Source: Leucobacter sp. G161 (GTDB lineage Bacteria > Actinomycetota > Actinomycetes > Actinomycetales > Microbacteriaceae). From it: a stretch of 64,000 nt of DNA. How positions within the stretch are numbered: position 1 is the stretch's first letter; the number at the start of each line of letters is the position of its first letter. The position numbers and the translations under genes are program-made. Below the pieces are notes generated by a model. It saw nothing but the letters and a program-made list of their open reading frames with translations. It was not told where the DNA came from and ran no database searches. The stretch covers positions 124,001-188,000 of the forward strand of contig NZ_LOHP01000060.1 of the NCBI RefSeq assembly GCF_001482305.1. Reading direction: 5' to 3'. Of this stretch, positions 28,224 through 62,056 are shown piece by piece.

Positions 28224-28410
28224 CACAGTTGCAGGCACAAACCTCAGCGAGTACGCACGCTCACCTGCCATGACCTCAGCGAGGTCATGGGCCTTGTACT
28301 GCACATCACTCCTGACTTCGCTGAGGTCATGGCTCATGAGCAGTTCAGGCCGGGGATCCTCGACCTCGAGAGTGCGCTGGCCGGAGCGAGAAGGGGCTCG
28401 CTGCGCTCCA
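28224..28410 (+). repeat. Dispersed intergenic repeat, copy A
   Basis: First of three homologous copies, here in the reference orientation, filling the gap between the convergent lamin-tail gene and era. Order: left flank beginning CACAGTTGCAGG, palindrome 1 at 28269-28289 (CATGACCTC, AGC, GAGGTCATG), a 22-base core at 28290-28311 starting GGCCTTGTACTGC, palindrome 2 at 28312-28331 (CTGACTTC, GCT, GAGGTCATG), then right flank GCTCATGAGCAGTTCAGGCC and on to AGAAGGGGCTCGC. Palindromes 1 and 2 are also inverted repeats of each other, so the whole forms a stem of about 20 bp with a 22-base loop. No open reading frame or target duplication explains it. Confidence 0.85.
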
Positions 28411-28464
28411 CCGAGTCTGTTCTTGCCGAGGTCCGTGCATGGAACTACCGCGGGCGCCTCGCGG

Positions 28465-29436
28465 TTAGAAACCGAGACGCCCGAGTGCCTTCGGATCGCG
28501 CTGCCACTCCTTGAGCACCTTCACGCGCAGCGAGAGGTACACGCGGCGCCCGAGGAGCGCTTCAATCTCGCGGCGGGCGTCTTCGCCGATCTGGCGGAGC
28601 CGCGAGCCGCCCTTTCCGATGACGATGCCCTTCTGGCTGTCGCGCTCAACGTACAGCGATGCGTAGAGCTCGAGGAGTCCCTGTTCGCCCTCGTTCTCAG
28701 GCTCGCGTTCTTCGCGGTCGTCCACCGTGGCCGCGAGCGAGTGCGGAAGCTCCTCGCGTGCTTCGCGCAGCGCGGCCTCGCGGATGAGTTCGGCGATCCG
28801 CTCGTCCTCGGTTTCGTCGGTCGACGCCTCGTCTTCGTACAGTGGCGGCGAGACCGGCATGAGCTTCAACAGCTCGTCGCTCAGAATGTCGAGCTGGTCG
28901 TTCGTCACCGACGATACGGGCACGACGGAGTCCCACTCGCGCAGCTCGCCGAGTCGCACGAGCTGGTCGTAGATCTCATCCTTGGACGCCTCGTCAACCT
29001 TCGTGAGAATGGCCACCTTCTTGGCACGCGGGAAGTCGTTCAGGCGGTCGTTAATGAAGCGATCTCCCGGCCCGAGTTTCTCGTTGGCCGGGACACAGAA
29101 CCCAATCACGTCGACGTCGCCGAGCGTGGCTTCGACGAGCGCGTTGAGGCGCTCCCCGAGCAGCGTGCGCGGCCGGTGGATGCCCGGGGTGTCGACGATG
29201 ATGAGCTGCCCGTTTGGGCGGTGCGCAATACCGCGGATCGCCCGTCGCGTCGTCTGCGGCTTCGGGCTCGTGATGGCGATCTTTTCGCCGACGATCGCGT
29301 TCGTGAGCGTTGACTTGCCGACGTTCGGTCGGCCAACGAAGGACACGAAGCCAGCCCGGAATTCAGTGCCCTCGGGAAGTGCCGTTCCGTATGCGACCTG
29401 GGGCACCTCTGGGGTGTCTGCTGCAGATGTGGTCAT
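28465..29436 (-). CDS. era: GTPase Era
   Basis: Era binds the 3' end of 16S rRNA and times 30S maturation. The 323-residue protein has GTPase motifs G1 GRPNVGKST, G3 DTPGIHRP and G4 LTKVD, then a C-terminal KH domain (ERDSQKGIVIGKGGSRLRQIG). Between the two lies an acidic insert of about 20 residues (DDREEREPENEGEQG). The ATG at 29436 overlaps the corC stop as ATGA. It is the last gene of the hrcA-to-era run; copy A of the dispersed repeat follows. Confidence 0.95.
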   Translation of the reverse strand: MTTSAADTPEVPQVAYGTALPEGTEFRAGFVSFVGRPNVGKSTLTNAIVGEKIAITSPKPQTTRRAIRGIAHRPNGQLIIVDTPGIHRPRTLLGERLNALVEATLGDVDVIGFCVPANEKLGPGDRFINDRLNDFPRAKKVAILTKVDEASKDEIYDQLVRLGELREWDSVVPVSSVTNDQLDILSDELLKLMPVSPPLYEDEASTDETEDERIAELIREAALREAREELPHSLAATVDDREEREPENEGEQGLLELYASLYVERDSQKGIVIGKGGSRLRQIGEDARREIEALLGRRVYLSLRVKVLKEWQRDPKALGRLGF

Positions 29437-30350
29437 GCTGTGTCCTCAATCATTGTTCCGTTCGCGGTGTCCGCGGGTTCCTGCACCGCGCGGGCGCGCG
29501 CCGTGATAAGTCGTTTGCGTCGGCGTTCGGTGTCGATCGCCTCAAGTTCGATGCCCTCGCCCGTCACTCGGTCTCCCACCTCTGGGAGCCTCCCGAGCCA
29601 CTTCGCGAACAGCCCACCAACAGTATCGACCTCTTCGTCATCGAGCTCGAGATCGAAAAGCTCGCCGAGGTCGTCGATCGGGAGCATCGCGCTCACGAGG
29701 TACAGCCCCGGGGCCTCTTCGACGACCTCGGGGGCCTCCCGATCGTGCTCGTCGCTAATGTCGCCGATCACTTCCTCGATGAGGTCCTCGAGCGTCACGA
29801 GGCCGGAGATGCCACCGTACTCGTCGACCACGAGGGCAAGATGGTTTGACTCATGCTGCATCCGCCGTAGGAGCTTGTCGGCGCGCTGCACCTCGGGGAC
29901 GAACATTGCAGGCTTCATGATGCGGGTCGCGGGCGACTCCTCAGACTCTTCCGGCCGGCGCAGCACGAAGCTACTCGCGTCGCGGAGGTAGACCACGCCG
30001 AGCACCTCGTCTACGTCGTCCCCAATGACGGGCACGCGCGAGTGGCGAGCGTTGAGCAGCAGTTCGAGGGTGTCGCGCACGGAGACATCGGAGTCGACCG
30101 TGACCATGTCGGTGCGGGGCACCATGACCTCGCGCACGAGGGTGTCACCGAACTCAACGATCGAGTGGATGTAATCGCGATCCCCCTCTTCAAGAAGGTC
30201 GAGCTCGGTCGCCTGATCCACCATCGAGAGCAGCTGCTGCTCGTCACGAACCCGACCGCGACCGAGGGCCACACGCTCGGCGATACGTCGCACCGCCGTG
30301 CTGGCCCGCTCAAATAGCGGAGGAAGATCTTGGTCGCTCATCGAGCTCAC
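29433..30350 (-). CDS. CorC/HlyC-type CBS-domain protein without the membrane domain
   Basis: The 305-residue protein has an N-terminal region ending RDYIHSIVEFGDTLVREVMVPRTDM, a pair of CBS domains (VRDTLELLLNARHSRVPVIGDD; ESNHLALVVDEYGGISGLVTLEDLIEEVIG), and a C-terminal CorC_HlyC domain (LYLVSAMLPIDDLGELF). This architecture suits magnesium/cobalt efflux accessory proteins. The DUF21 membrane domain found in many actinobacterial homologues is absent, as in proteobacterial CorC; the 4-base overlap with ybeY leaves no room for it. Start: GTG 30350 (GTGA overlap) or ATG 30341. Confidence 0.85.
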   Translation of the reverse strand: MSSMSDQDLPPLFERASTAVRRIAERVALGRGRVRDEQQLLSMVDQATELDLLEEGDRDYIHSIVEFGDTLVREVMVPRTDMVTVDSDVSVRDTLELLLNARHSRVPVIGDDVDEVLGVVYLRDASSFVLRRPEESEESPATRIMKPAMFVPEVQRADKLLRRMQHESNHLALVVDEYGGISGLVTLEDLIEEVIGDISDEHDREAPEVVEEAPGLYLVSAMLPIDDLGELFDLELDDEEVDTVGGLFAKWLGRLPEVGDRVTGEGIELEAIDTERRRKRLITARARAVQEPADTANGTMIEDTA

Positions 30351-30802
30351 CGTTCTCGGGTACTGAACGACAGCACGAGATCCCGCTGAAGGCCGAACAT
30401 CTCAGCCTCCTCGTCGGGAGTTCCATGGTCGAACCCGAGCAGGTGGAGCATGCCGTGCGTCACGAGCACGGTGAGTTCCTGCTCGAGGGAGTGCCCGGCG
30501 GCATCAGCCTGCATCAGCGCGATCTGCGGGCAGACCACGATATCGCCAAGCAGACCGGCCGGCGAAGCCGCATCCGGGCGCCCGGGGCGGAGCTCGTCCA
30601 TCGGGAAGCTCAAGACATCTGTCGGGCCGGGCTCGTCCATCCACTGGACGTGCAGCTGCTCGATCGCTGCCTCGTCGACGAACATCAGGCTGAGCTCGGT
30701 GTCCGGATGCACGTACATCGACTCGAGCACGAAGCCCACGAGTCGCTGCAGCCGGTCTTCGCCGACGGCGACCCCTGATTCGTTGTTGATCTCGACGCTC
30801 AT
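30347..30802 (-). CDS. ybeY: Endoribonuclease YbeY
   Basis: YbeY is a zinc endoribonuclease for rRNA maturation and quality control. The 151-residue protein has the zinc motif HGMLHLLGFDH (three His) and the DVLSFPMD stretch before it. Length is normal. The ATG at 30802 overlaps the phoH stop (ATGA), and its own stop overlaps corC. Confidence 0.95.
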   Translation of the reverse strand: MSVEINNESGVAVGEDRLQRLVGFVLESMYVHPDTELSLMFVDEAAIEQLHVQWMDEPGPTDVLSFPMDELRPGRPDAASPAGLLGDIVVCPQIALMQADAAGHSLEQELTVLVTHGMLHLLGFDHGTPDEEAEMFGLQRDLVLSFSTRER

Positions 30803-31857
30803 CGGTCGCGCTTCCCCTCGGTGGTGTGCTGGTCTGTGGCTGATCGTTCATCGAACGCCGCGTAGGCGTCAACGATGCGACCGACGAGGCTGTGCCTGAC
30901 AATGTCGTCGGCGGTCAGCTCGGAAAAGTGAATATCGTCGACACCGCGCAGGATGCCACTCACGACGCGAAGGCCGCTCTGCTTCACCGGCAGGTCGACC
31001 TGCGTCATGTCCCCGGTGACGACCATCTTCGACCCGTACCCGAGTCGGGTGAGGAACATCTTCATCTGTTCGGGGGTCGTGTTCTGTGCCTCGTCGAGGA
31101 TCACGAATGCCTCGTTGAGGGTGCGCCCGCGCATGTATGCGAGCGGGGCGACCTCGATCGTGCCGTTCGCGAGCAGCTTCGGGACGAGATCCTGATCCAT
31201 CATCGAACCGACCGCGTCGAACAACGGCCGGAGATACGGATCGATCTTGTCTTCGAGGCTGCCAGGCAGGTACCCGAGCCGCTCGCCAGCTTCTACAGCG
31301 GGCCGCGTGAGCACGATCTTTGAGACCTCGCGGCGCTGCAGCGCCTGCACGGCCTTCGCCATCGCGAGATAGGTTTTTCCGGTTCCGGCGGGACCGATGC
31401 CGAACACGATCGTGTTCTGCTCGATTGCATCGACGTAGTCGCGCTGCCCCTGCGTTTGCGGGCGCACCGCGTTGCCCCGAACCGTGAGAATCGGTTCGCT
31501 CAGCGTGATCGCCGCGCGCGGACCGTTGCCGTCGCGCACCATCCGCGCGATCGATCGCACGTCGGTGCTGGAGACGGTGCCGCTGCGCCTGGCGAGCTCG
31601 AGGATCTCGCGCACGAGTTCCTCGGCCGCCCGCACCGCGCTCGTCTCGCCGCGGATCGACAGCACGTCATTGCGGGCGTTAAAGACGACGTTGGGATGCT
31701 GGGTTTCGAGGTCAGCGAGGAGCTGGTCACGGTGACCGAGAAATGACGCGAGTTCGACGCCGGTAAGCGTCACCGTTCGCTCGAGCTGCGGCTCGGGCCG
31801 GGCGACTCCGTCCGTTGAGACGGCAGCTGTGTGTGGTGAGTCTGGTTCAGAACCCAA
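30799..31857 (-). CDS. phoH: PhoH-family ATPase (PhoH-like protein)
   Basis: The PhoH-like ATPase or RNA helicase normally sits before ybeY. The protein has a KH-like N-terminal region, Walker A GIGPAGTGKTYLA, Walker B AFVILDEAQNTTPEQ, and MVVTGDMTQVDLP. The start is not ATG: a TTG at 31857 has GAGGAG 10 bases upstream and overlaps the end of the HIT gene by 11 bases, giving 352 residues. Further TTG codons at 31875 and 31884 would lengthen it slightly. It is co-transcribed with ybeY, corC and era. Confidence 0.92.
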   Translation of the reverse strand: MGSEPDSPHTAAVSTDGVARPEPQLERTVTLTGVELASFLGHRDQLLADLETQHPNVVFNARNDVLSIRGETSAVRAAEELVREILELARRSGTVSSTDVRSIARMVRDGNGPRAAITLSEPILTVRGNAVRPQTQGQRDYVDAIEQNTIVFGIGPAGTGKTYLAMAKAVQALQRREVSKIVLTRPAVEAGERLGYLPGSLEDKIDPYLRPLFDAVGSMMDQDLVPKLLANGTIEVAPLAYMRGRTLNEAFVILDEAQNTTPEQMKMFLTRLGYGSKMVVTGDMTQVDLPVKQSGLRVVSGILRGVDDIHFSELTADDIVRHSLVGRIVDAYAAFDERSATDQHTTEGKRDR

Positions 31858-32194
31858 CGAGGGATCGCTCCTCAAGATTTGCAATGATGTGCGCGTGCAC
31901 GTGGAAGACGGTCTGGCCGACGCTCGCGCCGTTGTTAAAGATCAATCGGTACTCACCGTTTGCGTGCTCGGCCGCGAGCTGCTTTGCAACGGCGACCATT
32001 TCTGCGAGCAGCGTCGGGTCGCCAGCGGCGAGCTCGGTGACGTTCGCGTACTCGGTTGACTTCGGGATCACGAGAATGTGCACCGGAGCCTGCGGATTGA
32101 TATCGGGGAACGCGACAACGCGATCGGTTTCCGCGAGGAACGTCGTCGGGATCTCACCCGAGATGATCTTGCCAAATACAGTCTCTGCAGCCAT
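31847..32194 (-). CDS. HIT-family protein (histidine triad nucleotide-binding)
   Basis: A 115-residue HINT-like protein with FGKIISGEIP, FPDINPQAPVHILVIP and the histidine triad HVHAHII. Such proteins hydrolyse nucleoside phosphoramidates. The ATG at 32194 starts the conserved MAAETVFGKI. Its place between rsmE and phoH is conserved in actinobacteria. The end overlaps the phoH start region. Confidence 0.93.
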   Translation of the reverse strand: MAAETVFGKIISGEIPTTFLAETDRVVAFPDINPQAPVHILVIPKSTEYANVTELAAGDPTLLAEMVAVAKQLAAEHANGEYRLIFNNGASVGQTVFHVHAHIIANLEERSLVGF

Positions 32195-32288
32195 GCGCTT
32201 CAGTCTACCGACCCGCGGCGGGGCGCGGGGACCCAATCTTGACGGGCGAACGGTGTGTTCACCGCAAGGCGCCGGTAATCAAGGATCC

Positions 32289-33029
32289 TCACCAGCGACC
32301 CAGCGCGGTGTTCAGCACCGCCAGCGCCGCGGGCCCCGCAGAGGAGGTGCGCAGCACATCATCTCCGAGCAGCACAATGCGCCGGTCCCCTGTCACCGCT
32401 ACGGAACCGCCAAGCTCGGCGAGTTCCGTCTCGCTCAGTCCGCCCTCGGGTCCGACAACGAGAAAGACATCACGGTCGTCGCTGGGGAGCCACGCACTGA
32501 GCCGCGACTCACCACGCGGGTGCAGTACGAGCAGGTGCCCGTCCGTGGCCAACAGCTCCGCAGTCGTCTTCGGAGCGTGCACCTCAGGGATCCACGCCCG
32601 CATTGACTGTTTCGATGCCTCGCGAGCGATCCTGGCCCACTTGGCGACACCCTTCTCAGCCTTCTCGCCGCTCCAGCGCGAGATCGACCGCTCAGCCTGC
32701 CACGGGATGATCGCATCGACGCCGAACTCGGTCGCCTGCTCGACTGCACGCTCGTCGCGGTCGCCCTTTGCGAGGGCCTGCACGAGCACAATGCGGCGCG
32801 CGGGTCGCGGCGTCACCTCGACGCTCGTCACACGCAACGTAAAACTATCGCGCTCGACTGCTTCGACGTTCCCGGTAGCGCGCAGCCCACGACCGTCACC
32901 GACGATGGTCTGCTCGCCCACCCGAAGCCGACTCACGCGCACTGCGTGTCGCCCTTCGTCGCCCCCAACCGTGACAAGATCTCCCGGTTCTGGGCAAGCA
33001 AGACCCTCGGCAAAGTACAGATTTGCCAC
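32289..33029 (-). CDS. rsmE: 16S rRNA (uracil-1498-N3)-methyltransferase RsmE
   Basis: RsmE methylates U1498 of 16S rRNA using SAM. The 246-residue protein has an N-terminal PUA-like part (GDEGRHAVRVSRLRVGE) and a SPOUT methyltransferase domain with the knot motif LVVGPEGGLSETE and VLLGDDVLRTSSAGPAAL. The GTG at 33029 lies 3 bases after the dnaJ stop, giving MANLYFAEGLACPEPG, a sensible N-terminus. Confidence 0.94.
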   Translation of the reverse strand: MANLYFAEGLACPEPGDLVTVGGDEGRHAVRVSRLRVGEQTIVGDGRGLRATGNVEAVERDSFTLRVTSVEVTPRPARRIVLVQALAKGDRDERAVEQATEFGVDAIIPWQAERSISRWSGEKAEKGVAKWARIAREASKQSMRAWIPEVHAPKTTAELLATDGHLLVLHPRGESRLSAWLPSDDRDVFLVVGPEGGLSETELAELGGSVAVTGDRRIVLLGDDVLRTSSAGPAALAVLNTALGRW

Positions 33030-33032
33030 GGA

Positions 33033-34124
33033 CTAGCCGAAGAAACGATCGCGGAGCTTGCCGAAGAAGCTCTGTTTGAACTCGCCAAAGTGGGGCGGTT
33101 CGTCCTTACGGAGCTTCGCGAGCTGCTCCACGAGCGACTTTTCCTTGTGAGTCAGCTTCGTGGGCGTCGCAACCTGCATCGCGATCTTCAGGTCGCCACG
33201 GGTCGTGGAGCGCAGGCCCTGGATACCGCGGCCACGCACCGTCACGAGATCACCGGACTGTGTGCCGGCGGGGACCTCAACCGACACTGCACCGTCGAGC
33301 GAATCGACATTGACCTCAGTACCGAGGATGGCGTCGGTCATGGACACCTGCATGGTGCTCAACAGGTCGTTGCCGTCGCGACTGAAGACGTCGTCGTGCT
33401 CGACGCGGAACTCGATAAACAGGTCCCCGTTCGGGCCACCAAACGGGCCTACCTCGCCGCCGCCACGCATCTGCATGCGCGTGCCAGTGTCAATACCCGA
33501 TGGAATGTCCACCTGCATGGTGCGACGCTCGCGCAGTCGCCCCTTGCCCGCGCACTCAACGCAGGGGCTCTCGATGATCGTGCCGTAACCCTGGCAGCTG
33601 CCACACGGGTGCATCGTGACGACGTTCCCGAAGAGTGAGCGCACCTCCCGCTGCACCTGCCCCTGGCCACGGCACACGTCGCAGGTGACCGGGTGGGTGC
33701 CTGGCTGACAGCCGTTGCCGCCGCAGACGTTGCAGAGCACAGCGGTGTTCACCGTGACGTCGCGCTGCACACCGAAGATGACCTCTTCAAGCTTGACGTC
33801 AACCCGGATCAGTGCGTCCTCGCCGCGTTCCTCACGCGAGCGCGGGCCACGCGATCCGCCGCCGAAGCCGCCCCCGAAGAACGTCTCGAAGATATCGCCG
33901 AAGCCGCCCGCTCCGCCCTGCGAACCACCCATGTCGTAGCGCTGACGCTGCTCGGTGTCGCTGAGCACGTCGTATGCGTGCGTAACGCTCTTGAAGCGCT
34001 CCGCGGCTTCCTCGCTGGGGTTCACATCGGGGTGCAGCTGGCGGGCCAGCTTGCGATACGCCTTCTTGATCTCTTCGAGGCTCGCTTCGCGAGAAACGCC
34101 GAGCGTCTCGTAGTGATCCGCCAC
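33033..34124 (-). CDS. dnaJ: Molecular chaperone DnaJ (HrcA-linked paralogue)
   Basis: DnaJ delivers substrates to DnaK and stimulates its ATPase. The 363-residue protein has a J domain with HPD ([10 protein letters not shown]), a Gly/Phe-rich linker, four zinc-finger repeats ([32 protein letters not shown]) and the C-terminal substrate domains. The position after hrcA rather than beside dnaK-grpE marks it as the second DnaJ of actinobacteria. The GTG at 34124 is followed by [11 protein letters not shown]. Expression is probably under HrcA through the CIRCE site before hrcA. Confidence 0.95.
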
Positions 34125-34182
34125 AGTGGTACTCCTAGGTGTTCGTGGTTTGTGTGAAACGTCGTTGACTGCCGTTAACCGT

Positions 34183-35214
34183 TTAGCGGTCTTCGCTCAG
34201 CAATCGGTTGAGATATCTGGCAACCGCGCGAACCGCCTGGATATTCCCGGCGTAGTCCATGCGGAGCGGCCCGAGCACGCCGAGTCGCGACGCCCCCGGC
34301 TGTTCGTAATTCGTAGCGATAATCGAGGCGTCTGAGAGGCCATAGGCCTCATTCTCACGCCCGATCGACGACGCGATCTCCCGCTCATCCTGTACGAGCT
34401 CGCCGAAGAGCCGAAGCAGCGTGACCTGCTCCTCAATTGCCTCGAGCACGGTCGGTAGGGATCCCGCGAATTCACCAGGCCGGGTGAGGTTGGCGGCGCC
34501 GGCCACGGCAATACGGTCTGAGCGATTCGCCTGCAGCTGCTCAGACACCGCGCGCAGCACGTGGAGCGCGAGTTCGACGTCAGCGGGCTCCGCCCACTCG
34601 CGCACGCGGGCGGCAAGGTCAGTGACCGCGCGATCGGCGGCATCGATGTCGCGACCGACGACCGATCCCGAGATCTGCTCCCGGACACCGTTGAGCCAGG
34701 CCTCGTTCGCTCGGTCTGCTGGGAGGAGCGTCGTGTGCTGTTCGACAACCCCGTTGCCAAGGATGAGCACGCACAGCACCCGGTTCTCACCGAGCGCGAC
34801 AAGGTCAACGTGTCGAACTGCGACTGACCGCAACGACGGATACTGCACGACGGCTACCTGGTTGGTGAGCTGCGAGAGCAGTCGCACCGTCCGCGCCATG
34901 ACGTCATCGAGATCGCTTGATTCTCCGAGGAAACGCTCGATCGCGGAGCGCTGGGCCGCCGTCATCGGCCGCAGCTTGGCGAGCGTATCGACGTACATCC
35001 GGTAGCCCTTGTCCGTGGGCACGCGGCCAGACGAGGTGTGCGTCTGGGCGATCAGCTCGTCGTCTTCAAGCAGCGCCATGTCGTTGCGGATCGTCGCGGC
35101 AGACACCCCAAACGAGTGCCGCTCAACGATCGACTTCGAACCAACTGGCTCGTTCAGCGCGACGTAGTCACTAACAATTGCGTGCAGCACTGCGAGGCTA
35201 CGCTCCGGAACCAT
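34183..35214 (-). CDS. hrcA: Heat-inducible transcription repressor HrcA
   Basis: HrcA represses heat-shock genes through CIRCE. The 343-residue protein has an N-terminal winged helix ([56 protein letters not shown]) and C-terminal HrcA domain with ASIIATNY. Start: the ATG at 35214 (MVPERSL) lies 8 bases after AAAGGGGG; the adjacent GTG at 35217 is also possible. A CIRCE element lies 15 bases upstream, so hrcA is likely autoregulated with dnaJ. Confidence 0.95.
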
Positions 35215-35228
35215 CACGCGCCCCCTTT

Positions 35229-35255
35229 CTGGCACTCCAACAACCTGAGTGCCAG
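35229..35255 (-). promoter_or_regulatory. CIRCE operator of hrcA-dnaJ
   Basis: The sequence CTGGCACTC, 9 spacer bases, GAGTGCCAG is a perfect inverted repeat matching the CIRCE pattern TTAGCACTC-N9-GAGTGCTAA except for a symmetrical change of the outer bases (CTG/CAG). It sits between hemW and hrcA, directly before the hrcA Shine-Dalgarno. HrcA binding is expected. Confidence 0.85.
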
Positions 35256-35259
35256 TCTA

Positions 35260-36501
35260 CTACTCGAGCAGTTTTCCGACGACCGTGTCCGCCAAGAGCC
35301 GACCACGAAGGGTCGGCACGATCCGCGGCTGCGCCCCCTGCACCCCAAGCGCCGCGCGGCCTTCAATGAGCCCGTCAGCAATGAGCCCCGCCACGGCTTG
35401 CTTACCGTGTTCGCTGAGAGCTTCGATCGGGAAGCCGTCTCTGATGCGGGTTTCGAGCAGCACGCGCTCGCTATGTCGAGCTTCTGCGGTGAGGAGCTCA
35501 CGAGCGTGGGCTGGCGAGAGGCCCTGCCCCATCCGCTCTGCGTATGCTCGCGGATGCTTCACGTTCCACCAGCGGAGTCCACCCATGTGACTGTGCGCAC
35601 CTGGGCCGGCGCCCCACCAGTCCTCACCCGTCCAGTAGGACAGGTTATGGCGTGATCGTGTCTCCGGTGTACGCGACCAGTTGCTGATCTCGTACCAGTC
35701 GTAGCCCGCAGCGCTCATACGCGCGTCGAGCATCTCGTACATCTCCGCGTGCAGGTCATCATCGGGCTCAGCGACCTGGCCGCGGCGAATCTGTCCTGCG
35801 AGCTTCGTGCCGGCTTCAATGATGAGCGCGTACGCCGACAGGTGGTCTGGCGCATTCGCGAGCGCTGCGTCGAGCGAACGTTCCCAGTCGGCGAGCGACT
35901 CCCCCGGGGTGCCGTAGATGAGATCGAGACTCACCTGCAGGCCGACGGCGCGAGCCGCCTCCACCACGACGGGTACCCGCTCGGGCGTGTGCGTCCGATC
36001 AAGCGTCGCCAGCACGTGCGGCACCGCAGACTGCATACCGAAACTCACCCGCGTGAATCCGGCCTCCGCAAGCGTGGCAAGGTACGCCTCGTCTACGGAA
36101 TCCGGGTTCGCCTCAGTCGTCACCTCGGCACCGGGCGCAATTCCCCACTCGTCGCGGATCCGCGCCAACACCATCGCGAGGTCGCTCGCGGGTAGCAGCG
36201 TAGGTGTGCCACCTCCAAAGAAGACCGTCGAGACCTCACGGTCTGGCAGACCAGCGGTGCGCATGACGCCCGCGCCGAAACTCAACTCCCGAGCAGCTTC
36301 CGCCGCATAACCGGCCTGGCTCGCGCCGCCGCCAAGCTCACTCGCGGTATAGGTGTTGAAGTCGCAATAGCCGCAGCGCACGCGGCAGTACGGCACGTGC
36401 ACGTAGACGCCGAACGCGCGGTCCGCAGCGCCAGCCACTACGCTCTCCGGGAGCGCACCATCTGCCGGGGCGGGCTCGCCATCAGGGAGCACGCTCGGCA
36501 T
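35260..36501 (-). CDS. hemW: Radical SAM heme chaperone HemW (coproporphyrinogen oxidase-like)
   Basis: HemW proteins bind heme and a 4Fe-4S cluster and are proposed to insert heme into respiratory enzymes. The 413-residue protein has YVHVPYCRVRCGYCDFNTY with the CX3CX2C cluster motif, FFGGGTPTLL (SAM binding), EANPDSV, and the C-terminal HemN-like domain. The residue after the third Cys is Asp-Phe rather than the extra Cys of true HemN, favouring HemW. The ATG at 36501 is 2 bases after the DUF1990 stop. Confidence 0.92.
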   Translation of the reverse strand: MPSVLPDGEPAPADGALPESVVAGAADRAFGVYVHVPYCRVRCGYCDFNTYTASELGGGASQAGYAAEAARELSFGAGVMRTAGLPDREVSTVFFGGGTPTLLPASDLAMVLARIRDEWGIAPGAEVTTEANPDSVDEAYLATLAEAGFTRVSFGMQSAVPHVLATLDRTHTPERVPVVVEAARAVGLQVSLDLIYGTPGESLADWERSLDAALANAPDHLSAYALIIEAGTKLAGQIRRGQVAEPDDDLHAEMYEMLDARMSAAGYDWYEISNWSRTPETRSRHNLSYWTGEDWWGAGPGAHSHMGGLRWWNVKHPRAYAERMGQGLSPAHARELLTAEARHSERVLLETRIRDGFPIEALSEHGKQAVAGLIADGLIEGRAALGVQGAQPRIVPTLRGRLLADTVVGKLLE

Positions 36502-36503
36502 CG

Positions 36504-37220
36504 TCAGTCTTCCTGCGGCGCGGTGTCGGCCGAGTCAGACGCAGTCGTGCTGGAGTCAGCTCCTGTCACGCCGTTGCGAAGCGCCGCTCCCGGTGCGAGC
36601 GCCGCAATGCAAGCCTGCGCCTGCTCGACCACATCGCGGAGCTCCGCGCGCTGCTTGATCCCAGCCATGAGACCAGACTTCGTGAGGAACGTAAACCCGC
36701 GGGCAACCGCCCACACCGTCCCGTCGGCACGCTGCTCCACGGTGATGAGCTGCTCGCCGAAGCCGGGTACCTCGTCACGGTCACCCCAGGCGAAACCCAG
36801 CCGCTGCGGCTCGTCCACGGTCGAGATGACCATGATCGGGCGCGCGTTCTTCCCTGCTGGCGTGAGCGTGGCAGTGGTTCCCGGCTGAATATAGGCGACA
36901 CCCTCGGGGCTGAAGAGCTCCTCGGGCTCATCGCCCAGTTCAGGCGTCCCGCCCGCATTGAACTGGACTCCCAGGTATTCGCCTGGCTCCCCGCGCTCAA
37001 CATCGGTGACGGCGACACCTGCGGCTCGGTGGGCACCCCACGTCATGAGCAGGTTCGCTGCGGTCAGGAAGCGTTCTGAGCCGCTTCCGAGCTGCAGCGA
37101 TTCCTCGTACGGCGTCGAGCCGTCGGGAGGAAAGCGCAGCAGATCAGCAGCGTCTGACGCGCCGATCGCCGCGTAAGCGACGGGCATGCTTGTATAGCTT
37201 TTTCTGCGGGGACCGGTCAC
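36504..37220 (-). CDS. DUF1990 family protein
   Basis: A 238-residue cytoplasmic protein. The N-terminal [19 protein letters not shown] and core [20 protein letters not shown], then [11 protein letters not shown] and [31 protein letters not shown], match the DUF1990 (UPF0548-like) fold, for which no reaction is established. The start is GTG at 37220 overlapping the lepA stop as GTGA; an ATG at residue 12 is a later alternative. It sits between lepA and hemW in the operon, with a disordered Ser/Thr/Asp tail. Confidence 0.82.
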
Positions 37221-39070: not shown

Positions 39071-39190
39071 TGCCAGCCATTATCTCACGCGCGGGCGACT
39101 TGCGGGGCCACCTCCCGTTCAGGGCGCGCCTCCCCCGCGCCGCGTCGGCACCTGGGCTGCCCCGGCCCGCATGGGCCGTAGGATGAGCGC

Positions 39191-41090: not shown

Positions 41091-41094
41091 GCCC

Positions 41095-44846: not shown

Positions 44847-45025
44847 GGAGCGAAGCCCCTTTTCGCATCACCACCAGACTCTCGGCACTCAGGCACGCCC
44901 AGCCTGAATCGCTGACTAGACATGTCCTCAGCGAGGTCAGGAGTGATCGGCAGCACAAAGGTCATGACCTCGCTGAGGTCATGGCTCATGAGCGCTCTGC
45001 ACCGCTGAGGTCTGCACCCACAGTC
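44847..45025 (-). repeat. Dispersed intergenic repeat, copy B
   Basis: Homologous to copy A but on the minus strand, between the convergent rpsT and holA. On the plus strand: a flank with GGAGCGAAGCCCCTTTTCGC, imperfect palindrome 44921-44940 (CATGTCCTC, AGC, GAGGTCAG), core 44941-44962, perfect palindrome 44963-44983 (CATGACCTC, GCT, GAGGTCATG), then flank GCTCATGAGC and on to GACCTC-type sequence ending CACAGTC at 45025. Core orientation relative to flanks is the same as in copy A (about 16 of 22 bases match). Confidence 0.85.
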
Positions 45026-51364: not shown

Positions 51365-51423
51365 CTTGGAACGTGCGGCGCCACCACCGCGCCCGTACCC
51401 CTCGTCCCTGGCCTAGGAGTTTC

Positions 51424-52452: not shown

Positions 52453-52469
52453 CCGCACGCCTCTGCCAT

Positions 52470-52516
52470 GGAACCCGCTGCTTCACCCCGCTACCGGCGG
52501 AGGGGCAGCGGGTTCC
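52470..52516. terminator. Bidirectional terminator between the binding protein and comEC
   Basis: Perfect 12-base arms GGAACCCGCTGC (52470-52481) and its complement (52505-52516) fill the 67-base gap between two convergent stop codons. It can serve both strands; no long T-tract is present on either side. Confidence 0.7.
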
Positions 52517-52519
52517 GCG

Positions 52520-54985: not shown

Positions 54986-55902
54986 GTGCTCGCTCTGTCT
55001 CGAAACTTCTCCAGGGTTTTCGCGCCGATTCCGCTGACCTCGGTGAGCTGGTCAACGTTCTCGAAGCGACCGTTCGCTTCCCGCCACTCGACGATGCGCT
55101 GGGCGAGCGCAGGGCCGATCCCAGAGAGCTGCGTGAGTTGCTCGGCCGACGCCGTGTTGATGTTCACCGTCCCGCCGCTGTCGCCTCCGGCCGCGCTCTG
55201 ACTGTCCGCTCCCCCTGCCCCGGGCAACGACTGCCCTGTCTCCCGCATGAGCGCAGCAGTTTCCCTGTCGAAGACCTCGATCTGTTCGCCGTCGCTGATC
55301 TGACGGGCGAGATTCAACACAGTGAGGTCAGCCCGATCCGTCGGTCCCCCGGCCGCTTCGACGGCGTCGAACACACGCGCACCGGCCGCGAGCTCCACCA
55401 CGCCGGGCTCGCGCACCTCACCAACGAGGTGAACGAGAACAGGCGCTGCGGTCGTGGCCGCCCAGTCCTCCTCGGTCTCCTCGAGCGGCGAGCCGCCGAC
55501 CTCAGCGGTGACAGCGGCGTCTGGGTTCAGCCCGATGGTATCGGTCTCGCTGCCGCCGGCGAGGTTTCGAATCATCACACCCGCGGTCAGGGCAACCGCG
55601 ACAATAAACACGACAATCCCGACGGCAGCCGGCACGCTGACTCCGCGGAGCAGCCGCTGGAGGAGCGAGGGTGACGGCTGCCAGCTCAGTGACGCGCCTC
55701 CGGCTGCCTCGCAGGCAGGAGCGCTCACCCACCGGCCCACAGCCGCCGGATCCGACCTCCGTGTAGTGCCGTCAGGCTGCAAAGTCTCAGCCACGGCGGC
55801 ATCGAGATCCTCCTCGCTCTCCGTCGCGGAACCCCAGCGCGCACGCGCCGGGCGATCGAGGGCATCGGGCCCGGTCCTGGGGTCGCCTGTTGAGGAATAC
55901 AT
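54982..55902 (-). CDS. comEA: ComEA-type helix-hairpin-helix DNA-binding protein
   Basis: ComEA binds incoming double-stranded DNA at the cell surface. The protein has a cytoplasmic N-terminus, one membrane helix (VGIVVFIVAVALTAGVMI), an SLBB domain (VLVHLVGEVREPGVVELAAGARVFDAVEAAGG), a Gly/Ser linker and two HhH motifs (VNINTASAEQLTQLSGIGPALAQRIVEW; FENVDQLTEVSGIGAKTLEKF). The start is uncertain: the ATG at 55902 (MYSSTGDP) gives 306 residues without a clear SD, and the frame is open to 55950. A compound tandem repeat lies about 170 bases upstream. Confidence 0.9.
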   Translation of the reverse strand: MYSSTGDPRTGPDALDRPARARWGSATESEEDLDAAVAETLQPDGTTRRSDPAAVGRWVSAPACEAAGGASLSWQPSPSLLQRLLRGVSVPAAVGIVVFIVAVALTAGVMIRNLAGGSETDTIGLNPDAAVTAEVGGSPLEETEEDWAATTAAPVLVHLVGEVREPGVVELAAGARVFDAVEAAGGPTDRADLTVLNLARQISDGEQIEVFDRETAALMRETGQSLPGAGGADSQSAAGGDSGGTVNINTASAEQLTQLSGIGPALAQRIVEWREANGRFENVDQLTEVSGIGAKTLEKFRDRAST

Positions 55903-56074
55903 GCACCCAGCATGGTCAGCGCAACGCGCGCTGTGCCGGCCGGGGCACAATCAGTGGAGAGTCTGCGGCGGCACACGCTCACCTCACGAGTGTGGAGGAA
56001 GCACCACCCCGGAGCGCCCGAGCGTATCGATGCGGACTCGAACGGCGTGGAGAGGCGCGACCGGCGGGCGAGCA

Positions 56075-56158
<84 letters not shown>

Positions 56159-56166
56159 CTCAGCGG

Positions 56167-56838
56167 TTAGGGGGCAGTTGGCTGCCAGTCGGGGTGCGCC
56201 CCGCGAAGGTTTCCGAACACGGCCTCGATGGGCGCCGCGCCTCGTTGTCCGAACGATCCCACCCAGACGTCACCCGAGAAGCCATACCAGTTGTACGCTT
56301 CGGGATCGCCAAACGTGTAGCTGAACAGGGTGACGTCTCCGGATTGGGACTCGACATAGCTCGAGGACCTCAGTTCGGCAACAATATCCTGTGTCACCGC
56401 GCTCGGAAGCTCGGCGACAAATAGGTGCTCAACGAGCCCGGAGAGTGGGACTCCCCATACGCACGAGCGAAACTCGACGGCTTCGTCGAGGGCTGCGACT
56501 GCGGCGGGCCCCATGCGTGATTGGCGGTACTCCTCTTGGAATGCCGCGCTTGGTCCTACACCTTCCTCAAAGCTGGGCAGGAAGATCTGCTGCGCTTCCT
56601 CGTCCGTGATGAGTGACGAGCACTCGGGAACGGTCACATCGAGGTCTCTGTCAGGGACCTCACCCTCGTCTGAGGGGACGGGGGTGGGCGTCGCCGGGGC
56701 CCCGGATGCGGTGGGAGCAGGTCGAGTCGGTGTCGCCTCGGGCTCGACGGTCGGCGAGCACCCGAGCAGCCCCACGGCCACGAGACTCAGCACGACAAGG
56801 GATCCAGCGCCTCGGCGCGCAACCAACTGAGCGGACAT
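56167..56838 (-). CDS. Hypothetical lipoprotein
   Basis: A 223-residue protein with a signal peptide ending in lipobox LLGC (Cys27), followed by a Pro/Thr/Ala-rich linker to about residue 65. The extracytoplasmic domain contains two Cys that may pair (PECSSLITDEEAQQIF and FRSCVWGVPLSG) and ends VWVGSFGQRGAAPIEAVFGNL. The pattern resembles DUF3558-like actinobacterial lipoproteins, but I would not assign it. The ATG at 56838 is the only good start. The stop abuts the tandem repeat. Confidence 0.8.
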   Translation of the reverse strand: MSAQLVARRGAGSLVVLSLVAVGLLGCSPTVEPEATPTRPAPTASGAPATPTPVPSDEGEVPDRDLDVTVPECSSLITDEEAQQIFLPSFEEGVGPSAAFQEEYRQSRMGPAAVAALDEAVEFRSCVWGVPLSGLVEHLFVAELPSAVTQDIVAELRSSSYVESQSGDVTLFSYTFGDPEAYNWYGFSGDVWVGSFGQRGAAPIEAVFGNLRGAHPDWQPTAP

Positions 56839-56853
56839 GGCTAGATCGTAGCA

Positions 56854-56890
56854 GCGGGTGAGGCATCAGCGCTGCCGACCCCTCACCCGC
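56854..56890 (-). terminator. Terminator hairpin downstream of leuS
   Basis: Ten-base arms GCGGGTGAGG (56854-56863) and CCTCACCCGC (56881-56890) lie 12 bases after the leuS stop and before the lipoprotein gene on the same strand. No clear T-tract. Confidence 0.65.
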
Positions 56891-56902
56891 GCCCTTCGGC
56901 TG

Positions 56903-59440
56903 CTAGCTCGCTGGCTTCGTCGCGATCGATACGATCTTCGGAGCGCGCGCGATGACCTTCACGATCTCGCGGTCACCAATGGCGCGCTGGGCGTTCGCTG
57001 AAGCGCGCGCTGCCGCCTCGGCATCGACTTCGCTAATCGATGGCGACACCGTGATCTTGTCGCGCACCTTGCCGTCGACCTGCACGATCATCAGCACTTC
57101 GTCGACGACCGTGAGCGATGCGTCGCCCTTCGGCCACTCGACGAGCGCAACGGTCGGCTCGTGGCCGAGCATCGCCCACATGTCTTCCGCGGCATACGGC
57201 GCGTACATCGACAGCATGACGGCGATCGCCTCAGCTGACTCGCGGACTGCGGGATCGGCGACGCCGCAGCCGGAGTCGATCGCCTTGCGGGTCACATTGA
57301 CCTGTTCCATGAGCCGCGCGATGAGCACGTTGAACTTGTAGGACTCAGCGAGCTGCGGCCCGTCAATGAGCAGCTGGTGCGTTGCCCGACGCAGCGCCTT
57401 GTCGCCGTCGGCAAAGGAGACGCCCACGGGTGCCCCGCCGACCTCAACGTCGTGTGCGATGCGCCAGGCGCGGGCGAGGAACTTCGCCGAGCCCTGCACC
57501 GACACGTCGGCCCAGTCGATGTCGTCCTCAGGCGGGCCGGCGAACACGAGCGAGACACGCAGCGCGTCGGTGCCGTGCTCTTCGAGCTCTGAGGCGAACT
57601 CGACGATGTTGCCCTTCGACTTTGACATCTTTGCGCCGTCGAGCAGCACCATGCCCTGGTTGAGCATTTCGCTGAAGGGCTCTTCAAAGTCGATGTAGCC
57701 GAGGTCAAACAGCACCTTGGTGATGAAACGTGAGTAGAGCAGGTGCAGAATCGCGTGCTCGACGCCGCCAACGTACTGATCGACGGGCGCCCACTTCTTC
57801 GCCTCTGCGGGATCGAACGCCTGCGTAGGATCGTTCGCCGAGAGGAAGCGGAAGAAGTACCACGAGCTGTCCACGAAGGTGTCCATCGTGTCGGGGTCGC
57901 GCGTGAGCGTCTCCCCCGTCTCGGGATCGACGACGGTCGCCCACTCGGTTGCCGCGCCGAGCGGCGAGGATCCCTTCGGCTTGAGGTCGAGGCCTGCCGC
58001 ATCGGGCAGCTTCACGGGGAGTGACTCCTCGGCGACGGGCTGCATCGAGCCGTCTTCAGAGTAGAGGATCGGGATCGGGGTGCCCCAGTAGCGCTGGCGC
58101 GAGATGAGCCAGTCGCGCAGGCGGTACGTGGTCGTCGCGCGGCCGGTGCCACGCGCTTCAAGAACCTCGATGGCGCGGGCGATTGCCGCGTCCTTGCCGA
58201 GTCCGTCGAGCTCGGCGGAGTTCACCATCGTGCCCTCGCCGGAGGTTGCGACACCCGAGACTGCGGGATCCGCGAGCGGTTCACCGTCTTCGTCGCGCAC
58301 GTCGACGACAACGCGCACCGGGAGGTCGAATTTCAGCGCGAAGTCGAGGTCGCGCTGATCGTGCGCGGGCACGGCCATGATCGCGCCGTGGCCGTAGTCG
58401 GCGAGCACGTAATCAGATGCCCAGACGGGAATGCGCTCGCCACTCACGGGGTTCACGGCGAAGTGGTCGAGGAAGACGCCGGTCTTTTCGCGGTCGGTGC
58501 TCTGCCGCTCGATCTCGGTCTGCTTCTGCGTCTGCTCCATGTATGCCTGGAATTGCATCCGCACTGCCGGTGATGCTCCGGCAGCGAGTTCGGCGGCCAA
58601 GTCGGAGTCCGGGGCGACCACCATGAACGTCGCGCCGTGGAGCGTGTCGGGGCGGGTCGTGAACACGGGAACGCGCGCTGAGCGGCCCTCGATCTCGAAT
58701 TCGACCTCTGCTCCGTGCGAGCGGCCGATCCAGTTGCGCTGCATGCTAATGACCTTGGAGGGCCAGCGTCCCTCGAGCTGGTCGAGGTCGTCCACGAGAC
58801 GATCAGCGTAGTCGGTGATGCGGAAGTACCACTGCGTGAGCTTCTTCTTCACGACAACGGCGCCGGAACGCTCGGAGGTGCCGTCCGCGAGCACCTGCTC
58901 GTTCGCGAGCACCGTCTGGTCTACCGGGTCCCAGTTCACCCAGCTGGCCTTGCGGTAGGCGAGGCCCTTCTCGTACATCTTCAGGAAGATCCACTGGTTC
59001 CACTTGTAGTACTCGGGGTCGCTCGTGTGGAGCACGCGGCTCCAGTCAAAGGACGGCGCGTAGGTGCGGAACGAAGCCTTCTGCTGCTCGATGTTCGCGT
59101 AGGTCCACTCGCGCGGATCGATGCCGCGCTGGATTGCAGCGTTCTCGGCGGGCAGGCCGAAGGAGTCCCAGCCGATCGGGTGCAGCACGTCGTGGCCCTG
59201 GCCGCGCCAGTAGCGGGCCATGATGTCGCCGAATGCGAAGGCTTCCGCGTGTCCCATGTGGAGGTCGCCCGACGGGTACGGGAACATGTCGAGCACGTAC
59301 TTCCGTGGCCTGTCTGATTCGAGGCCGACGGGCACCTCAAACGGCTTGAGCTCATCCCAGACGGGTAGCCAGCGATCCTGGATCGCCTTGAAGTCATAGC
59401 CCTGCTCAGCATCCTGCTGGCCGGTTCCCTGCTCGCTCAC
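56903..59440 (-). CDS. leuS: Leucyl-tRNA synthetase
   Basis: LeuRS charges tRNA-Leu. The 845-residue protein has the class I HIGH motif as HMGH ([15 protein letters not shown]), a zinc/leucine-specific region, the CP1 editing domain ([24 protein letters not shown]), KMSKS as [11 protein letters not shown] and the anticodon-binding C-terminus. The start is the GTG at 59440: GAGG sits 5 bases upstream. A GTG at 59446 is in frame but overlaps that GAGG. Confidence 0.96.
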
Positions 59441-59514
59441 ACGCACCTCAACACTCGTCGATCATTTCCGGCCTCTGGGACCGCACACATCCACCCAGTT
59501 TATCCCGCCGAGCG

Positions 59515-60837
59515 TCAAAGGTTTGCCAGCATCGCGGCAGCCTTGAGATCTCGCTCCCGCCGCTCGGCCTCCGGGACAGAATCGATCGTGATTCCCCCGC
59601 CTGCGCCCACGAGGGCACGGCTGCGCGTCGCGGTGTCAGCAGACCACACCGTCCCGGCTGCTGCGCGCAGTTCGACGCCACGAATCGTCATGGCCAGCTC
59701 GGCGTCGCCGCCGTCGTCAATCCATCCGAAACAGCCCGCGTACAGCCCGCGTGGCCCGGCTTCGAGGACCGAGAGAACCTCAATCGCGCTTCGTTTCGGG
59801 GCACCCGTCATCGATCCGCCGGGGAAACACGCTTCGAGTGCGTCGTACACGTCGGCTCCCGCACGCAGCTCCCCCGCAACCGTGCTCACCAGTTGGTGCA
59901 CCCGCGGATGCGTTTCGACGGTGAGGAACCGTTCCACCCGCACCGAACCGACGGCGCACACTCGGGCAAGGTCGTTCCGCATGAGGTCGACGATCATGAG
60001 ATTCTCAGCCCGCTCCTTCGGGTCGGCGGCAAGCTCGGCCGCGAGTTCCCGATCCCGATCCGCCGATTCGCCGCGCGGTCTCGTGCCCTTGATCGGATGC
60101 GTCGAGACCGTGTGGCCTCGCACACTCAGAAAGCGCTCAGGGCTAGCGCTCACGAGCGCGCGGCCGGGCATCGAGATCACCCCGCCCCGCATCGCGCCCT
60201 GCCGCAGGCGCCCGTATAGTTCGAGCGGCGACGCCACTGTGTGCGCTTCCGCGGTGTCTGTGAGGCACAGCACGTACGCGTCGCCCGCGCGGATCGCAGC
60301 GCGGCAGTCAGCTACGCGTGCCTCGTAGTCGTCGCCACGCCACACGTGTTGGGCCAACTCGTGAGCGGGGTGCAGTCTGGCCGCGCGCGCGGGCGTCGTG
60401 GCCACTGGTGCGGATCGGGTCGTAAGCAGCGCTGATAGTCGTGCGGCCGCGGCAGCGTCGCCGCAAATCTCGGCCGATCCTGTGTCGTGGTTCACCACGA
60501 GCACGGCGTCCGCACGCAGCGCAAACGCGGGCGCTGCGTCGTCCACAGGGGCGTCAGCGCCCACCAGCGCAACCCCGAATTCGTAGCCGAGGGCTGCGAT
60601 CCACCCCGCGGCCAAGCCGGAGAAGACCCGCGGTGGTCGTGCGGCTGCTGCACCCTGCTGCTGCGCGCGAAGCGACGCCAGAAAGTCCCGTTCGCGACCA
60701 CGCTCAGCCTCGCGCACTTCGCTGGCAATGCCCAGGTAGCTCACGCGGCGCTCGCCGGGCGCAGCTGCCTCACCGTCGAGCCAAAACCAGGCGTTGCCGC
60801 TTTCCTCGAGTACCCGAGCAGCATCGATCGCCGTCAC
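59515..60837 (-). CDS. pabB: Aminodeoxychorismate synthase component I
   Basis: PabB aminates chorismate to 4-amino-4-deoxychorismate for folate synthesis, using ammonia from PabA. The 440-residue protein has the chorismate-binding domain with HPIKGTRPRG; the Lys in PIKGT is typical of PabB, where TrpE has Ala. Further motifs are LMIVDLMRNDLARV, VHQLVSTVAG, FPGGSMTGAPK and GCFGWIDDGGDAELAMTIR. Start: of three in-frame GTG codons (60864, 60858, 60837) only the last has GGGGGAG at a normal distance (5 bases). No pabA is in the window. It is divergent from pabC. Confidence 0.9.
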   Translation of the reverse strand: MTAIDAARVLEESGNAWFWLDGEAAAPGERRVSYLGIASEVREAERGRERDFLASLRAQQQGAAAARPPRVFSGLAAGWIAALGYEFGVALVGADAPVDDAAPAFALRADAVLVVNHDTGSAEICGDAAAAARLSALLTTRSAPVATTPARAARLHPAHELAQHVWRGDDYEARVADCRAAIRAGDAYVLCLTDTAEAHTVASPLELYGRLRQGAMRGGVISMPGRALVSASPERFLSVRGHTVSTHPIKGTRPRGESADRDRELAAELAADPKERAENLMIVDLMRNDLARVCAVGSVRVERFLTVETHPRVHQLVSTVAGELRAGADVYDALEACFPGGSMTGAPKRSAIEVLSVLEAGPRGLYAGCFGWIDDGGDAELAMTIRGVELRAAAGTVWSADTATRSRALVGAGGGITIDSVPEAERRERDLKAAAMLANL

Positions 60838-60886
60838 TGCGACTCCCCCACGTTCCACCCTCACAGCGTAGTGCTACGCTCGCGCC

Positions 60887-61834
60887 ATGAGTACTTCCGC
60901 TGGCGCGCCCGAGCTGGTTGCAGCTGACTCGTTTCGCGTGCGAGTGCGCGACGGCCGGGCAGAGGTGCGCGGATTCGAGCAGCACATCGAGCGCTTTCGG
61001 TGGGCGGTCAGCGACGCGATGCTGGCTGACGGCAGCGGCAGCCGTCCCGAGGTCTCAACGGTCGAGGAGTCAACTCGGCGGGCCGCAGCAACGAGCGCGC
61101 TCTTCGACCCAAACCCTGTCGCAGCCCCCGCCAGCTTCTCGTGGCTGGTGCACGACTCCCCTCTCACCGCTGCGGAACGGGCAACGCTCGACGCGTTCCT
61201 GATCGAGTCCGGCGCCGAGATCGAGCGTTTCGGCGAGGGGTTTCCTCGGCTGGAGATGTGGCGTGATCCAGACGGGTCCACACGCTTCGCGCGCTCCCTG
61301 CGACCGCTCCCACCGCTCGGGGAGACGCTCCAGCTCACGTCAGTCGTTGCCGCACCCTGCGCACACGCGCGCCGCAAGGGGCCCAACATCGCCAGCTACT
61401 CTGCGCTCAACCGCAGGCTCAGCGCAGAGGCAGTGCTCGTCGACGCCACTGGATTTGTCCGGGAAGGGGCGACGACGAGTTTCGTCTGCTGGCCAGACGA
61501 CAGCGAGCAGACGGGCTATGTCAGTGACTCCGACGCACGCGTCGCCTCAGTCACGGAGGCAATCTTGGTTGCGGCGGCGGCACAGCGGCTCGTCGGCGAA
61601 AAGCCGAACCGCACCCGTGCTGGCCTGCTCGCCCGCGCTAGCGCAACCGTGAGCGAACTGCAGCGCGCTGAAGTGTGGGCGGTTAACGCGCTCCACGGGA
61701 TCCGCACTGTGTCCCACATCGACGGCGTCACACTCCCCTCGCACAACGCGAGCCGGCTTCAGTGGTTCCGCGAGGCGCTCGACCGCTCGTGGCAGCCGGT
61801 CGAGCCCGTCACGCGCGGGGACGCTCGCCCGTAA
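60887..61834 (+). CDS. pabC: Aminotransferase class IV, probable 4-amino-4-deoxychorismate lyase
   Basis: PabC eliminates pyruvate from aminodeoxychorismate to give p-aminobenzoate. The 315-residue protein has class IV features: RGFEQHIERFRWA, the PLP-lysine segment RRKGPNIASYSALNRRL, then VLVDATGFVREGATTSFVCW and WAVNALHGIRTVSHIDG. Divergent placement next to pabB supports a folate role over branched-chain aminotransferase. The ATG at 60887 lies in the short divergent gap. Copy C of the dispersed repeat follows the gene. Confidence 0.85.
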   Translation: MSTSAGAPELVAADSFRVRVRDGRAEVRGFEQHIERFRWAVSDAMLADGSGSRPEVSTVEESTRRAAATSALFDPNPVAAPASFSWLVHDSPLTAAERATLDAFLIESGAEIERFGEGFPRLEMWRDPDGSTRFARSLRPLPPLGETLQLTSVVAAPCAHARRKGPNIASYSALNRRLSAEAVLVDATGFVREGATTSFVCWPDDSEQTGYVSDSDARVASVTEAILVAAAAQRLVGEKPNRTRAGLLARASATVSELQRAEVWAVNALHGIRTVSHIDGVTLPSHNASRLQWFREALDRSWQPVEPVTRGDARP

Positions 61835-61890
61835 CGAGGCTCCTCACAGTTGAAGGTGTAGCGATGGCAAGGAATCGTGGTGAGCGCGGG

Positions 61891-62056
61891 AGGCCACGAC
61901 CACCACACTCTCAATCCCAAGGCATCCCCGGCCTGAATTGCTCATCAGCCATGACCTCAGCGAGGTCATGAGCCTTTTGCTGCAAATCAATCCTGACCTC
62001 GCTGAGGTCATGGCAGGTGAGCGTCCGTACTCGTGAGGTCTACACCTGCAACTGTG
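61891..62056 (-). repeat. Dispersed intergenic repeat, copy C (core flipped)
   Basis: Flanks match copy A on the opposite strand: GGCCTGAATTGCTCAT on the left and GCAGGTGAGCG to TGCAACTGTG on the right. Between them palindrome 61950-61970 (CATGACCTC, AGC, GAGGTCATG), core 61971-61992 starting AGCCTTTTGCTGCAAATC, and palindrome 61993-62012 (CTGACCTC, GCT, GAGGTCATG) read in the same direction as copy A: 17 of 22 core bases match forward, 3 of 22 in the direction of the flanks. The truncated palindrome arm has moved with the core. It lies between convergent pabC and cydC. Confidence 0.85.

Follow-up and report, generated by a model that had tools for sequence, protein, structure and literature searches.

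Repeats of bacteria can be partnered by a gene of their own, REP-RAYT being a well-known case. Here we describe a dispersed, symmetric DNA array of Leucobacter sp. G161, built of four half-sites and present at three places in a stretch of 64,000 nucleotides of contig NZ_LOHP01000060.1 (positions 124,001 to 188,000, hereafter the window), together with a gene that stands between such arrays elsewhere in the 3.55-Mb genome. We consider that this repeat is probably the recognition array of a cognate AbiEi-type protein, and that array and protein would form a system resembling REP-RAYT from unrelated parts. The observations underlying this proposal are the architecture of the array, its association with the gene, the match of scattered copies to the gene of the same genome, the copy number and the preference for convergent gene ends.

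Several described systems come close to this arrangement. The Leucobacter arrays are dispersed, extragenic and composed of an inverted pair, as REP and REPIN elements are. REP/REPIN-RAYT systems (REPtrons) are reported to comprise dispersed symmetric intergenic repeats of genome-specific types, with one gene per type lying near or flanked by them, and these repeats stand mostly between convergent or same-direction genes (PMC3116915; PMC3733652); the Leucobacter arrays are alike in both respects. The comparison with a REP doublet made in an earlier note on this DNA therefore holds for the organisation (dispersed, symmetric, genome-specific, intergenic and with a gene partner) but not for the family. 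No Y1_Tnp/RAYT gene (PF01797) was found in any of the 54 Leucobacter genomes to which our genus-wide counts refer, 5 of 14 control genomes being positive, which refutes RAYT as the partner gene and with it REP/REPIN membership. The RAYT product is a Y1 HUH transposase, whereas the Leucobacter gene codes for an AbiEi-type region joined to a nuclease-like domain. The Leucobacter array further differs from a REPIN in its 82-93 bp, its tens of copies and a pairing between arms that barely exceeds that of swapped arms; compensatory changes are described as common for REPINs in the same reports (PMC3116915; PMC3733652). TIRtrons share with the Leucobacter gene the organisation of a single gene flanked by inverted repeats able to form families, although that gene (TIRYT) is described there as a Y1 tyrosine transposase (PMC3733652).

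On the protein side, Streptococcus agalactiae AbiEi and Mycobacterium tuberculosis Rv2827c are described as binding two and four 23-bp inverted repeats, respectively, at their own promoters (PMC7319586), which makes binding of the array by its cognate protein plausible. The AbiEi antitoxins of that account resemble the Leucobacter protein in the N-terminal region and in that two or four repeats adjoin their gene (PMC7319586); the Leucobacter protein differs by its extra C-terminal domain, and its arrays lie on both sides of the gene and scattered over the genome. We found no report of this array-gene system in the open-licence PubMed Central literature, among the matches listed. With the ISL3 family of insertion sequences (IS) and its miniature inverted-repeat transposable elements (MITE), about half of the copies in strain G161 have the end sequence in common, while G161 gives no match to the corresponding transposase and the copies of other genomes share almost no flank.

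Architecture and distribution of the array in strain G161

All three copies that the earlier note had placed in the window are present there. By alignment and covariance model they share a 93-bp core, located at 28254..28346 on the forward strand (copy A), 44906..44998 on the reverse strand (copy B) and 61935..62027 on the reverse strand (copy C). Copy A consists of an outer half-site (CGCTCA..CATG), the palindrome CATGACCTCAGCGAGGTCATG at 28269-28289, a spacer, a second palindrome at 28311-28331 and another outer half-site. The paired palindromes of the note, CATGACCTCAGCGAGGTCATG and a GCT-centred partner, were likewise recovered, some copies deviating at one or two positions; in each of the three copies 42 bp separate their centres, and 21 consecutive columns over the first palindrome are invariant in alignment A1. 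When the 17-bp palindrome was searched with up to 3 mismatches, the window gave 14 strand matches, 12 of them inside copies A, B and C; shuffled windows gave 0.67 on average, and 0 of 100 reached 14. The long conserved flanks that the note had also reported did not stand in that form, because the shared core is only 93 bp and part of the flanks is an ISL3-family-like IS end. Within the searches made, its statement that the element fits no named family is upheld: the window gave no Rfam match at gathering score, and at E ≤0.1 the loci L001, L011, L252 and L256 gave miRNA-precursor models only, far below their gathering scores.

The further copies anticipated by the note exist. A BLAST search of the whole genome (G000 in our labelling, where G numbers denote genomes and L numbers loci or copies) with copy A gave 63 matches over both strands, and the covariance model finds at least 42 distinct array places. 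Palindromes with at most one mismatch number 55 per strand, a reversed control pattern giving 0, and the 50 places listed include 14 neighbouring palindrome pairs, all 42 bp apart. The core can be written as an outer half-site CGCTSA-nnn-GMCATG, a near-CATGNCCTCAGCGARGTCAKG palindrome and a spacer, then mirrored. Positions that never vary in 41 own-genome copies include T2, GC10-11, TCA16-18, C30 and G32; the script for this alignment preset the 42-bp palindrome spacing, which is thus no evidence for that spacing.

Copies tend to lie where genes converge. Within the window, copy A is enclosed by genes ending at 28135 (+) and 28465 (-), copy C by genes ending at 61834 (+) and 62065 (-), and the neighbours of copy B are called convergent; only 6 of 52 gene pairs in the window are convergent, and three of them are the sites of these copies. 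Over the genome, 25 of the 35 copies with determined context have convergent neighbour genes, 9 have tandem and 1 has divergent ones, the remaining 6 of 41 having no callable neighbour gene. In other genomes the corresponding figure is 31 of 59 determined copies (61 in total, two without callable neighbour; L195, L207, L219, L248 and L250 were left out), compared with 7 of 64 other gene pairs at the same loci, and no array was found inside a called gene among these 59 copies. Gene context comes from a simple codon-usage gene caller, which missed the cognate gene beside L024.

Some further features of individual copies were seen. Copies that lack a clear ISL3-like end often adjoin G- or C-rich short tandem repeats (minisatellites; L009, L022, L024, L066, L071, L073, L111 and L114), and extra tandem half-site units lie outside the core in L190, L241, L250 and L063, as if units expanded and contracted. 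At L219 (G076) and at C75:21983-23168 (G000) arrays are paired, with some hundreds to a thousand bases between them, and tblastn found no homologue of the cognate gene in these two loci.

Arrays in other Leucobacter genomes

The search of related genomes that the note had proposed was positive. Two covariance models combined, at a cut-off of E ≤0.01 per genome, place versions of the array in 13 of the 54 Leucobacter genomes; the model of the G000 core matches 5 of them and a second model, built from four G034 copies, 12. The membership of G025 rests on a single match (E 0.006), and the 42 places of G000 are a minimum, 79 candidates having been scored per genome. Every genome has its own array sequence and a usual length of about 82 or about 92-93 bp, a difference of about one helical turn, with exceptions that include a 50-bp form in G024. 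Exact-pattern searches found the G000-type sequence elsewhere only in the metagenome-assembled genome (MAG) Leucobacter sp. Go_Leine_bin_17 (G027) and in contig L110, and with one exact pattern G000 alone matched among 398 genomes of the host's family, which indicates that the array sequence is highly genome-specific.

Contig L110 (CANROC010000054.1), filed under an Oscillospiraceae MAG, shares 96.8% identity with G000 along the 1708 bp that surround L020. Given this identity we treated it as a misplaced Leucobacter contig and discarded Oscillospiraceae as a carrier of the array; it is likely a contamination of that MAG.

In G034, G009, G065 and G033 each arm contains two like half-sites 19 bp apart, with the arms inverted (for example CGAGAnGCCA twice), and the half-sites of an arm agree at 8.0-8.6 of 10 positions. 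The inter-half-site spacers are also alike within most genomes, reaching 0.63 in G000 against 0.30 when shuffled, which suggests copying; this likeness is weak in G034 (0.43 against 0.35). The copy set comprised 118 copies from 12 genomes, with L110 pooled with G000 and with L154, L181, L182, L195, L248 and L250 left out. At two sites orthologous between G000 and G027 (L061/L176 and L062/L175) the core and its spacing are kept while the surroundings align poorly, and at a third (L063/L181) the core is retained in decayed form.

A gene family between arrays

In G034 two arrays flank a single open reading frame, and a related open reading frame is likewise flanked in G000. The candidate cognate gene of G000 (G000:C43:35887-36942, 351 aa) lies outside the window between two copies of the G000 array, the upstream one at a distance of about 90 bp and the downstream one at about 50 bp; its product is most likely the cognate protein of this genome. 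As far as looked, the earlier remark that no transposase accounts for the element is right for the copies of the window; the two copies at this gene flank what looks like the cognate protein's gene. Relatives of the gene stand beside an array in G024, G033 and G065, and the family occurs in 44 of the 54 genomes at E ≤1e-15.

The association was measured at 50 homologue loci, 30 of them from the homologue search and 20 chosen by us from its match list; five of the 50 had first been found via arrays. Flanks were scored for a set of four half-sites of 12 bp with a direct-repeat distance of 19 bp, with a threshold of 44.2, the 99% level of 284 control segments. At least one flank exceeds this level in 47 homologues and both flanks in 27, and when the five array-found loci are excluded, 43 of 45 homologues still have an array-scoring flank. 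Counted per segment, 74 of 100 flanks are above the threshold as compared to 1 of 60 intergenic controls, and in a free-spacing test 19 bp is the preferred direct-repeat distance for 72 of 100 flanks, as against 4 of 97 controls. An array lies upstream of the gene in 36 of the 50 loci and downstream in 38. At the 27 two-sided loci the arrays are only 1095-1418 bp apart, with room for this one gene only, which again is unlike the AbiEi antitoxins. Versions of the gene differ in array motif, L277 and L295 each carrying a near-identical array on both sides. No homologues were found in viral contigs, plasmids or phages.

Two further homologues are encoded in G000, one (L284, G000:C69) with a different array on one flank and the other (L285, G000:C17) with none above threshold. 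A different palindrome, TTTACTC..GAGTAAA, occurs near homologue loci in G065 and G021 (L255:1118-1167 and L298:3489-3542).

The protein combines an AbiEi-type region with a C-terminal E..D..ExDG..K domain that is nuclease-like by motif only. The AbiEi model of PADLOC matches all 50 homologues (E ≤0.01; approximately residues 10-180 in one member), Pfam AbiEi_4 matches 27 at E ≤0.1, and the NCBIfam AbiEi model a single one (E 0.035). Going by the family name, we take the AbiEi-type region to be a winged helix. In the C-terminal domain E224, D255, D268, G269 and K272 are invariant in 50 of 50 homologues, a pattern that we presume to be of the Vsr/DUF559-type PD-(D/E)XK kind, the resemblance being by motif and lacking profile support.

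Scattered arrays match the gene of their own genome. Profiles built from scattered copies, gene-adjacent copies excluded, were ranked against the 50 loci. In 8 of 9 genomes, among them all 6 that have 6 copies or more, the top rank went to a homologue from that very genome, and in G000 the score is 54.0 against 5.5 for the next. In line with this notion, the similarity of a motif to that of the nearest protein relative is 0.567, compared with 0.453 after permutation (0 of 5000 permutations as high).

ISL3-like ends of the window copies

The ISL3-like end of copy A (GGCTCCTCACAGTTGCAGG...) lies at 28217..28241 on the forward strand, 52 bp outside the first palindrome, with 3 of 18 mismatches to the family end, and resembles the ends of ISL3-type IS from other Leucobacter genomes. 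By reading of the sequence, that of copy B is strongly decayed. Copy C has a left end at 62039..62063 on the reverse strand (5 of 18 mismatches) and a right end (GGCTCCTCACAGTTGAAGGTGTAGC) at 61838..61862 on the forward strand; with both ends it spans 61838-62063, 226 bp, and shows no evident target duplication. The motif GTAG occurs within the ISL3-like end (GGTGTAGA), in a stretch that ISL3 elements share.

Discussion

The arrangement of arrays around an AbiEi-type gene, and the agreement of scattered arrays with it, points to a cognate protein. Such a protein may bind its array as an oligomer on double-stranded DNA, and its C-terminal domain may cut DNA. The array could have been scattered by cutting and repair, or by recombination with the copies flanking the gene, and in G000 a miniature element of ISL3 type seems also to have carried it. 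Copies might persist at gene ends because little harm is done there or because convergent transcription would be insulated; in this regard, a host role of arrays at convergent gene ends is possible. More tentatively, and with belief on the lower side of even, we suggest a new class of repeat spreading, in which a single-gene cassette (array, AbiEi-type gene with nuclease-like domain, array) would copy its own array, the specificities of protein and array would change together, and a private repeat family would arise in many Leucobacter genomes.

Several results weigh against recognition of the array by a cognate protein, or against its proposed spread. The G000 array itself lacks the 19-bp repeat, its outer and inner half-sites agreeing at 2.67 of 10 positions, about chance, and the half-sites of an arm differ also in G076 (4.32 of 10) and G027 (3.75 of 10). 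What ties the G000 array to the others is hence its symmetry, its length, its matches to covariance models, its position and the adjoining gene, and not the 19-bp repeat. Consistently, the own-genome locus L256 fails the array score (39 and 37), although its arrays are real and without the 19-bp repeat; L285 fails too, and L259 is borderline (44.0). As for the protein, profile searches gave the C-terminal domain no convincing relative, PD-(D/E)XK included, hhalign against Escherichia coli Vsr gave no match, and a TAL-effector match (0.0035) was rejected after it did not recur in a repeat search. Regarding the pairing, two of the eight first ranks rest on one copy each, and one of these two, G021, ties with G018; the own homologue of G063 ranks third. 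The overall correlation of protein and motif is weak and not significant (Mantel r 0.074, 220 of 2000 permutations as high), so that array specificity would be common to close relatives only. Moreover, G027 has 13 copies, yet its only homologue carries another motif (this MAG is 74% complete), and core-only retention is not universal, because core and flanks of copy A are both conserved there.

Also on the opposing side are signs of pairing between arms. Pooled over seven genomes, the arms of one copy pair at 69.7% of positions as compared to 68.6% for swapped arms (z 2.1, 68 of 3000 shuffles as high). In alignment A2, 1 of 500 shuffles attains the long-hairpin covariation score, and for two G027 copies folding gives a long, almost perfect hairpin. 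Together these results favour some strand structure. A2 covariation favours the long hairpin as a selected feature, and the swap test gives it little support. Two separate hairpins were discarded as the conserved structure, as they showed no covariation.

Could the array be a bidirectional transcription terminator, or an RNA hairpin at convergent gene ends that is kept for its fold? Its location fits, and so does RNA folding, with z between -5 and -13 for the 10 copies analysed, as do the A2 covariation and the slight pooled excess of arm pairing. That excess is about 1 percentage point, however, and singly no genome exceeds z 1.8 (range -0.2 to 1.8); no long U tract was read, L061 and L111 adjoin a separate terminator-like hairpin, and neither the genome-specific sequences nor the link to one gene family is explained. 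Since complementarity between the arms within a copy scarcely exceeds that of swapped arms, repeated protein-binding motifs fit better than a hairpin kept by base pairing, and we regard a terminator as unlikely. Somewhat less unlikely, though still doubtful, is a regulon or nucleoid-organising site, at which an AbiEi-type autoregulator would also bind scattered host sites arisen by selection and not by copying. AbiEi proteins are described as autoregulating through inverted repeats (PMC7319586), the array often lies upstream of the gene, and sites are retained at orthologous places. The likeness of spacers within most genomes nevertheless points to copying, arrays also stand downstream of the gene, and the sequences differ between genomes.

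A purely transposon-based origin, with the array as internal filler of an ISL3-family MITE moved by a since-lost transposase, deserves little credence. On its side, 20 of the 39 distinct G000 copies (one of the 40 rows scored, L027, had taken the neighbouring L011 instead) carry a left end like GGCTCTTCACAATTG / GGCTCTTCACAATTGnAGGTGTAGA at 51-53 bp beyond the core and with no more than 5 mismatches in 18 positions, and five copies have the right end as well (at most 4 of 18 mismatches; total 212-520 bp). The target duplication of ISL3 elements is 8 bp long, and a possible one, in 7 of 8 positions, is seen in L011 only. Flank homology between different copies extends to 29 of 84 G000 flanks, and the ISL3 transposase (PF01610) matches in 11 of the 54 genomes; in 8 of these 11, ends of this kind occur with no more than 3 mismatches in 16 positions. 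In contrast, 11 of the 39 copies have no recognisable end (at least 9 mismatches), the core outlives its surroundings at some orthologous sites, and the scattered copies of G034, G009, G076, G065, G033 and G027 have hardly any flank in common (0-2 pairs per genome). A profile search gave no PF01610 match in G000 or G027, and the arrays beside the AbiEi-type gene would be left unexplained. To a REP/REPIN family mobilised by RAYT, taken literally, we give next to no weight: the inverted palindrome pair, the dispersed, intergenic and genome-specific occurrence and the weak long-hairpin covariation would suit it, but PF01797 went unmatched in all 54 genomes and the gene family that accompanies the repeat is another one.

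If recognition of the array by its cognate AbiEi-type protein is the right explanation, it would constitute a second, unrelated pairing of a repeat with a gene, and such an arrangement would have arisen at least twice in evolution. A function would also be suggested for an AbiEi-like gene family that is widespread in Leucobacter and hardly covered by NCBIfam. Finally, the genus would offer many natural pairs of protein and DNA specificity, in which each gene predicts its own binding site.

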